Positions 31,053-32,921 of a stretch of 64,000 nucleotides of DNA are shown here, piece by piece. The DNA is from Turneriella sp. (lineage in GTDB: Bacteria > Spirochaetota > Leptospiria > Turneriellales > Turneriellaceae). A program made the translations under genes and the position numbers. The stretch lies in NCBI GenBank assembly GCA_019186965.1, contig JABARV010000010.1, positions 186,001 to 250,000 on the forward strand. Reading direction: 5' to 3'. Below the pieces are notes generated by a model that was not told where the DNA came from, did no database searches, and saw only the letters and a program-made list of their open reading frames with translations. Each line of letters starts with the position of its first letter. Position 1 is the stretch's first letter.

Positions 31053-32921
31053 ATGGGCATAATAACCTTCCGCGAAGACATTCAAGGTCTGCGGGCTATC
31101 GCAGTGCTTTCTGTGGGTATCTTTCATTTTAATAAAGAGTGGTTACCTGGTGGCTTTGTTGGTGTTGATATCTTTCTTGTAATTTCTGGATTTCTTATTA
31201 CGAGTATTTTATTGCAGAAAAAAAATGAGATAAATTATCGTTTAATAGATACTCTTAAGTATTTTTATTTTAGTCGTTTTAAGCGTATTGTTCCAGCTTA
31301 CATGGTGTTATTGGTATTTTCTGCAATTATTGCAGGTGTACTTTTTATACCTCAAGATTTTGATGTTTTTAGTGCGGGTTTTGATAAGGCATTTTATTTT
31401 AATAGTAATCAATATTTTTCAAATTTTGGTGATTATTTTGCGCCTTCAAGTTATGAACAGCCGCTGTTGCATACATGGTCTTTGGCTGTCGAAATACAGT
31501 TTTATATCATTGCCCCTTTCTTGGTGTTGCTTGTACCGAAGCGATTGTTACTTCGTATTTTAATAGTTTTAAGTATTGTTTTGCTTTTAATCGCAGAGTA
31601 TCGTTTAAGTGTTCAAGGTGCTAAGCAAGCTACTTACTATAGTCTCTATGCACGGCTACCAGAATTTTTCATGGGGGCTATTGCGGCACTTCTTCTTTTT
31701 AATGATCACGCATTACGGCAGAATAAACTGCTACAATGGTCAGGATTAGTAGCCGTCATTGCCTCCGTTGTTTTTCAGCCAGAATTAGGAAATTTTCCAG
31801 GCTTACGCGTTTTGTTGCCAACTTTGGGAGCGACGCTTATTCTCTTGAGCCAGCCAGCCAGCCAGCCAGCCAGCCAGTCGTTGGCTTCATACTTTCTTAC
31901 AAACAAATTCATGGTATGGATGGGAGCACTTTCGTATTCCTTTTATTTATGGCATTGGCCAGTATTAGCGTTTTTGAGATATTATACGGGAATGGAGCAA
32001 CTGGACTTATACTATAGCATTTATTTTGTACTTATAACAATAGCACTTACACTCATTTCGTATTACTTAGTCGAGCTGCCATTTAGAAAAAAGAAATTTA
32101 GCAAGCTGCATCTTGCAGGGGCGGTGAGCTTACTAATCGTCATTGTGTCTATTTCGTTTGAAAAGAAAAAAATAAATACATCTTTTACAGCCAAGCCGCT
32201 ACCGATTGAATTTACGCGCTATGCCGATGATTCACAAATTTGTCATGGAAAAATTGTGGGTGATTGTTTACAGGGCGATTTAAAAAGCCAACGTGAAATT
32301 CTTGTTTTAGGTGATTCTCATGCAGCAATGCTCAACCATTTCTTTGATTATTTAGGTAAAGAGTTAAAATTTAAGGTTCGAATAATTACAGCAAGTAGCT
32401 GTGTTACTATCCCTGGGTTTGATTATGAGCGTATTGCTGAATGGGCGCATAAACCTTGTTTATCACAAATTGAAGAAGCGAAAAAATATCTATCGAAAAC
32501 TCCATATGTTTTCTTAGCTGCCAGTTGGAATTGGCAATTAGAATCACCAAAGTTTAAGCAAGTCTTACACAAATTTTTATTAAGCCGTGATATAGACGGT
32601 AAGAAAATATATTTACTGGAGCAGGAACCTTTACTCAATATTAATCCTCAGCGGGCTTTACGTGCAAAGTTCCTAGGATTAAGTCCTGTTATCGGGACAG
32701 ACAAGAGATATCTTGTCGCGAATGCTTGGTTAAGGCAAGAAGCACGAGCGTTTCGGAATGTTCAAACGCTCAATTTTGGAGCATTACAGTTTTTTAGCAA
32801 TGCCCCATTTTATGGTAAAGATTTAATCTATATGGATGAACACCATCTTAATCAAGTTGGTGCCGTTCTTTATGCTAAAGTTGCCCAAAATACATTCAAG
32901 CAGATAGTTACTTCAAAGTGA
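31053..32921 (+). CDS. O-antigen acyltransferase (OafA/YrhL family) with C-terminal SGNH domain
   Basis: 622 residues. The N-terminal Acyl_transf_3 domain has about ten membrane helices and the signature FREDIQGLRAIAVLSVGIFHF. The C-terminal periplasmic SGNH domain (about 400-622) shows LVLGDSHAAMLNHF and the closing DEHHLNQVG with Asp and His. Such enzymes move an acetyl group across the membrane to O-acetylate the glycan. At codons 266-275 the gene carries seven AGCC units; gain or loss of a unit shifts the frame and removes the SGNH domain. It takes the place of wbpC in the O5-type gene order. Confidence 0.88.
   Translation: MGIITFREDIQGLRAIAVLSVGIFHFNKEWLPGGFVGVDIFLVISGFLITSILLQKKNEINYRLIDTLKYFYFSRFKRIVPAYMVLLVFSAIIAGVLFIPQDFDVFSAGFDKAFYFNSNQYFSNFGDYFAPSSYEQPLLHTWSLAVEIQFYIIAPFLVLLVPKRLLLRILIVLSIVLLLIAEYRLSVQGAKQATYYSLYARLPEFFMGAIAALLLFNDHALRQNKLLQWSGLVAVIASVVFQPELGNFPGLRVLLPTLGATLILLSQPASQPASQSLASYFLTNKFMVWMGALSYSFYLWHWPVLAFLRYYTGMEQLDLYYSIYFVLITIALTLISYYLVELPFRKKKFSKLHLAGAVSLLIVIVSISFEKKKINTSFTAKPLPIEFTRYADDSQICHGKIVGDCLQGDLKSQREILVLGDSHAAMLNHFFDYLGKELKFKVRIITASSCVTIPGFDYERIAEWAHKPCLSQIEEAKKYLSKTPYVFLAASWNWQLESPKFKQVLHKFLLSRDIDGKKIYLLEQEPLLNINPQRALRAKFLGLSPVIGTDKRYLVANAWLRQEARAFRNVQTLNFGALQFFSNAPFYGKDLIYMDEHHLNQVGAVLYAKVAQNTFKQIVTSK
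31848..31877 (+). repeat. AGCC tetranucleotide tandem repeat, seven full units plus AG
   Basis: Thirty bases of uninterrupted AGCC inside the acyltransferase gene, encoding alternating Ser-Gln-Pro-Ala. Because four is not a multiple of three, slippage changes the frame. One unit more leads to a stop near 32017; one unit fewer to a stop near 31968. Tetranucleotide repeats of this sort control surface genes in Haemophilus and Neisseria. Confidence 0.9.

Follow-up and report, generated by a model that had tools for sequence, protein, structure and literature searches.

The window analysed here, a 64,000-nucleotide stretch of Turneriella sp. DNA, holds an acyltransferase gene whose membrane part is traversed by a perfect AGCC repeat, and the question raised by this locus is whether the repeat serves as an on/off switch for the gene or has some other explanation. 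The original prediction had called the gene OafA-type, and this call is supported by both domains, PF01757 and PF19040, each matching over its cut-off (Table 1). With the R-X10-H, GDSH and DEHH motifs all present, the gene seems to be intact and in frame. Hydropathy and alignment, from which all helix numbers for the acyltransferase are taken, are compatible with ten AT3 helices and an eleventh before the SGNH domain; an AlphaFold model, made from a two-row alignment and with a pLDDT of 38, was set aside. The enzyme probably adds acetyl groups to surface sugars. Close homologues were absent from 393 genomes of the phylum (one genome per species), where the best matches reached about 36-39% identity. 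Elsewhere in the same genome there are two strong matches to FlaA (0 in 14 control genomes) and a weak match, under the model's cut-off, to a LenA-type lipoprotein.

Table 1. Coordinates of the acyltransferase gene, its repeat tract and related features. Positions are those of the window except in the last line.
Feature	Position	Strand	Basis
AT3-SGNH O-acyltransferase gene (OafA/OafB type), 622 aa, in frame (ON) in the assembly	31053..32921	+	ORF and domain matches
Acyl_transf_3 domain (PF01757), aa 9-339	31077..32069	+	107.9 bits (gathering cut-off 31)
R-X10-H motif of the AT3 domain	R14-H25	+	sequence
Perfect (AGCC)7.5 tetranucleotide tract	31848..31877	+	TRF (7.5 copies, 100% matches); raw sequence
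SQPASQPASQ, aa 266-275, coded by the tract	31848..31877	+	translation
Stop codon reached with one unit fewer or two more	31966..31968	+	frame analysis, sequence
Stop codon reached with one unit more or two fewer	32015..32017	+	frame analysis
SGNH domain (PF19040), aa 401-610, absent from frameshifted products	32253..32882	+	77.3 bits (gathering cut-off 27)
GDSH motif (catalytic serine block), aa 420-423	32310..32321	+	sequence
DEHH, the Asp-x-x-His catalytic block, aa 595-598	32835..32846	+	sequence
Polysaccharide flippase-type protein gene, just downstream of the acyltransferase	33021-34238		
(AGGTC)11 of the G018 AT3-SGNH gene	L013:1418-1474		

The seven uninterrupted AGCC units that had been predicted in the membrane part of the gene were confirmed by TRF and in the raw sequence, and the count was refined to 7.5 units, giving a tract of 30 nt. 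The tract is far beyond chance: it appeared in 0 of 100 dinucleotide-preserving shuffles of the window, for a genome of 3.08 Mb, base composition predicts about 1e-9 lag-4 runs as long as 30 nt, and the longest lag-4 run in Markov simulations (3 x 1 Mb) was 14-16 nt, the second-longest 4-nt run in 443 kb of actual sequence from this genome being 15 nt. The survey of SSRs in the genome covered these 443 kb of stretches and was complemented by pattern searches, in which (AGCC)5 was found at a single site of the genome, the tract itself, and in none of 17 order-mates (0/17). Perfect, non-chance and of at least five tetranucleotide units, the tract has one of the features by which an SSR contingency gene is recognised. 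A published cut-off for tetranucleotide phase variation is at least 5 units, which the 7 units here exceed, with the proviso that tracts of about the cut-off length may mutate at too low a rate to switch in practice (PMC6321876). Two findings were counted against a switch, namely that 7.5 units is short compared with the tracts of many proven switches, and that no further comparable tetranucleotide tract was found in the 443 kb sampled; the genome is not SSR-rich in the Haemophilus manner. The unit number could also be an artefact of assembly or sequencing, the true number being different or the tract collapsed, given an assembly in 27 contigs; however, a 30-nt tract is shorter than any usual read and the reading frame continues on either side of it, with the domains intact, and we give this explanation almost no credence.

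Elsewhere in the window, eight 12-nt repeats at 13878-13972 (TACCGCACAAGT) code for TAQ(V/A/D) in a protein whose C-terminal domain is Fic-like, and because they are in frame they would produce length polymorphism and not ON/OFF expression. An intergenic 22-nt repeat is present in 3.6 copies at 39209-39288 (TTCCGAAATTTACGGCTCCATA), and a tandem repeat with a 31-nt unit in 2.9 copies at 60032-60120, upstream of a TolC-like gene.

The tract follows the eighth hydrophobic helix, with helices counted by eye from hydropathy and homologues, and so falls in the TM8-9 loop. This short loop is predicted to be cytoplasmic, since the N terminus would lie in the cytoplasm as is reported for OafB-type proteins (PMC9833829). 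Any change by one or two units shifts the frame of what is, from its locus context, predicted to be a surface-structure gene. The products would be 303 aa (-1 unit), 322 aa (+1), 318 aa (-2) and 307 aa (+2), all of them without TM9-11 and the SGNH domain. Loss of the SGNH domain upon a single-unit change had been foreseen, and the frame analysis confirms it while showing that the last AT3 helices are lost as well. The frame breaks just 3' of the tract, since an AGCC repeat contains no stop in any frame, and three units more or fewer preserve the reading frame. The last point, together with the tract being in frame in the assembly, would suit an explanation at the protein level, in which the SQPA repeat is a linker that makes the TM8-9 loop longer and adjusts the enzyme in steps of three units, not ON/OFF; it has likewise been suggested that a tract in mid-gene may modulate the function of the protein and not switch its expression ON or OFF (PMC2651432). 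Such a linker is nonetheless improbable, as one- or two-unit slips truncate the protein, homologues do without the SQPA segment, and oafA of Haemophilus was scored as ON or OFF in isolates in later work (PMC6479036). An SQPA peptide repeat needs a period of 12 nt, yet the period of the DNA is a perfect 4 nt, which points to slippage by 4-nt units.

The tract was shared by no relative among the 393 phylum genomes and 17 order-mates. Alignment showed that the SQPA segment is absent from same-phylum homologues, in which the corresponding loop is short and variable; given homologues without it, the segment is best seen as an insertion in a permissive loop. These findings, along with there being one tract in the genome and of 7.5 units only, also fit the main rival to a switch, a recent neutral microsatellite that would have arisen by chance slippage in the permissive loop and is tolerated, seldom changing and not kept for switching.

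The acyltransferase gene sits among genes encoding NeuC and a WbuX amidotransferase, NeuB-like and NeuA-like proteins (named by eye from their translations, unscored), a PglD/NeuD-like acetyltransferase, a formyltransferase and the flippase-type protein. From this gene content, the locus is of the O-antigen/sialic-acid or capsule type, probably with a nonulosonic acid, and its glycan is probably the substrate of the acyltransferase. Two poly-G runs were seen in the same polysaccharide locus. A G9 run at 26984-26992 (+) lies at SAM motif I of a methyltransferase gene (26826-27559, +), of which the N-terminal part and the main domain are in different frames (IADICTGGG / GGGTLSYHL); by its sequence this gene looks caught out of frame at the poly-G, possibly through phase variation or an assembly error. 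A G10 run at 19581-19590 (+) lies near the 3' end of the intact PglD/NeuD-like acetyltransferase gene, which overlaps the following formyltransferase gene by TTGA. Poly-G of at least 9 was rejected as a genome-wide mark of phase variation, because the seven such runs elsewhere in the genome fall within intact ORFs, several being of housekeeping type.

We consider that the AGCC tract is a slipped-strand translational contingency switch of surface O-acylation, with a probability of roughly two in three. The original prediction of a contingency repeat is supported in this respect by the domain matches, the frame analysis and the comparators described below. According to this model, slipped-strand mispairing during replication would add or remove 4-nt units. 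With the present unit number the gene would be read through, giving an AT3 membrane domain to carry acyl groups through the membrane and an SGNH domain in the periplasm to transfer them to the repeat unit of the O-antigen or capsule that the surrounding genes produce. One or two units gained or lost would shift the frame after TM8 and end translation within about 50 codons; the OFF state would have no functional enzyme and an un-acylated polysaccharide, and later slips would restore the ON state. Extra SQPA residues would be tolerable in the short TM8-9 loop. Instability of the tract, O-acetylation, its substrate and an advantage such as evading phages or predators are what we infer.

Comparable tracts were found in distant lineages. 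In H. influenzae, the product of oafA O-acetylates LOS, and a GCAA tract makes the gene phase variable (PMC6479036; PMC9558356); this tract is mid-gene, an exception among the tetranucleotide genes of that species (PMC2651432). In Haemophilus aegyptius (L280), oafA is an AT3-SGNH gene and carries a 49-nt GCAA tract of 12.25 copies in the TM6-7 loop, where its reading frame is broken; near another AT3 match of this organism a (CTGTT)22 pentanucleotide array was observed (L282:2435-2545). A class-mate spirochaete (G018; L013, L259) has an AT3-SGNH gene split at (AGGTC)11 in the TM6-7 loop, with the SGNH half in another frame and the AGGTC tract at a single site in its genome. This gene shares with ours the class, the domain architecture, a genome-unique SSR and its place in a cytoplasmic AT3 loop, and differs in having AGGTC x11, in TM6-7 and out of frame in its assembly; the two proteins are 39% identical over the N-terminal half. 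An AT3-SGNH gene of another genome (G039, L265) was not counted as a switch because no repeat accompanies its split into different frames. When GTDB genomes were scanned for (AGCC)7, at least 120 stretches were returned, and among the matches listed one ORF over (AGCC)7 was AT3-SGNH, that of Vibrio sp. HDW18 (NZ_CP049913, L036). It resembles ours in that AGCC is read as SQPA in an AT3-SGNH gene and that no other such tract occurs in its genome, and differs in its 17 units, (AGCC)17, its TM6-7 position and an ORF without the N-terminal ~65 AT3 residues; this gene may be broken. Short pentanucleotide repeats were also noted just upstream of AT3-SGNH starts in three Vibrio genomes (L244:1224-1249, L246:3460-3479 and L252:1006-1027), possible promoter-length switches, and arrays of 8-nt repeats (CGCTGAGT, CGCTGAGC) were noted beside an AT3 match in a further genome (G041, L018:606-763).

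The four tracts, those of Turneriella, Haemophilus, G018 and Vibrio, align to two neighbouring cytoplasmic-side loops, and their different unit or position and their distant lineages make it likely, as far as sequences tell, that they arose independently. That different SSRs recur in cytoplasmic loops of AT3-SGNH genes, and that the G018 and Haemophilus copies are out of frame, argues against the neutral microsatellite, which we regard as unlikely, though not negligible. A broader proposal, that contingency tracts have converged on AT3-SGNH transferases as a hot spot (GCAA, AGCC and AGGTC arising independently in cytoplasmic loops, in Haemophilus, Vibrio and two Leptospira-class lineages) and that the present locus is in addition a multi-switch one with the poly-G-interrupted methyltransferase, is put forward tentatively and is, taken whole, open to real doubt. 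Recurrent use of the cytoplasmic loops of AT3, should it prove right, is new as well. Different repeats recurring in the same kind of membrane-protein loop provide a simple, testable rule for finding further phase-variable acyltransferases. Literature searches on SSR phase variation in Leptospira or Turneriella returned nothing on point. If the tract switches, SSR-driven switching of O-acylation, known from Haemophilus as a host-adapted bacterium, extends to spirochaetes of a lineage related to Leptospira, in which serology centres on variation of the surface polysaccharide.

Set against known systems, a tetranucleotide switch in the middle of an oafA acetyltransferase gene has been published before and AGCC is already a known contingency unit; what is new here is the lineage and the TM8-9 position. 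The suggestion that this repeat unit is unusual in such a gene stands in part: among the matches listed, AGCC in AT3-SGNH genes is rare but not unique, given the tract of Vibrio sp. HDW18, and a mid-gene GCAA tract is on record for H. influenzae oafA. AGCC is best known as a contingency unit from type III mod methyltransferase genes, such as modA of Haemophilus and Neisseria (PMC6479036; PMC2667262); modA has in common with our gene the AGCC unit, which there gives slipped-strand ON/OFF switching, but it encodes a DNA methyltransferase of a different gene family. OafA and OafB of Salmonella are, like our protein, AT3-SGNH transferases, acting as O-antigen acetyltransferases (PMC9833829), and the phase variation of the oafB type is reported to be epigenetic, not SSR-based (PMC9558356). 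A known system close to our gene is Haemophilus oafA, an instance of the phase-variable O-acetylation noted as known elsewhere, in its case with a GCAA tract (PMC2651432). Both are AT3 genes with a perfect mid-gene tetranucleotide tract in which a one-unit change shifts the frame, and the H. aegyptius gene matches ours further in being AT3-SGNH with its tract in a cytoplasmic AT3 loop. In contrast, the Haemophilus gene has a GCAA unit in the TM6-7 loop, an SSR-rich genome and LOS heptose as its substrate, whereas ours has AGCC in TM8-9, in 7.5 copies and in a spirochaete.
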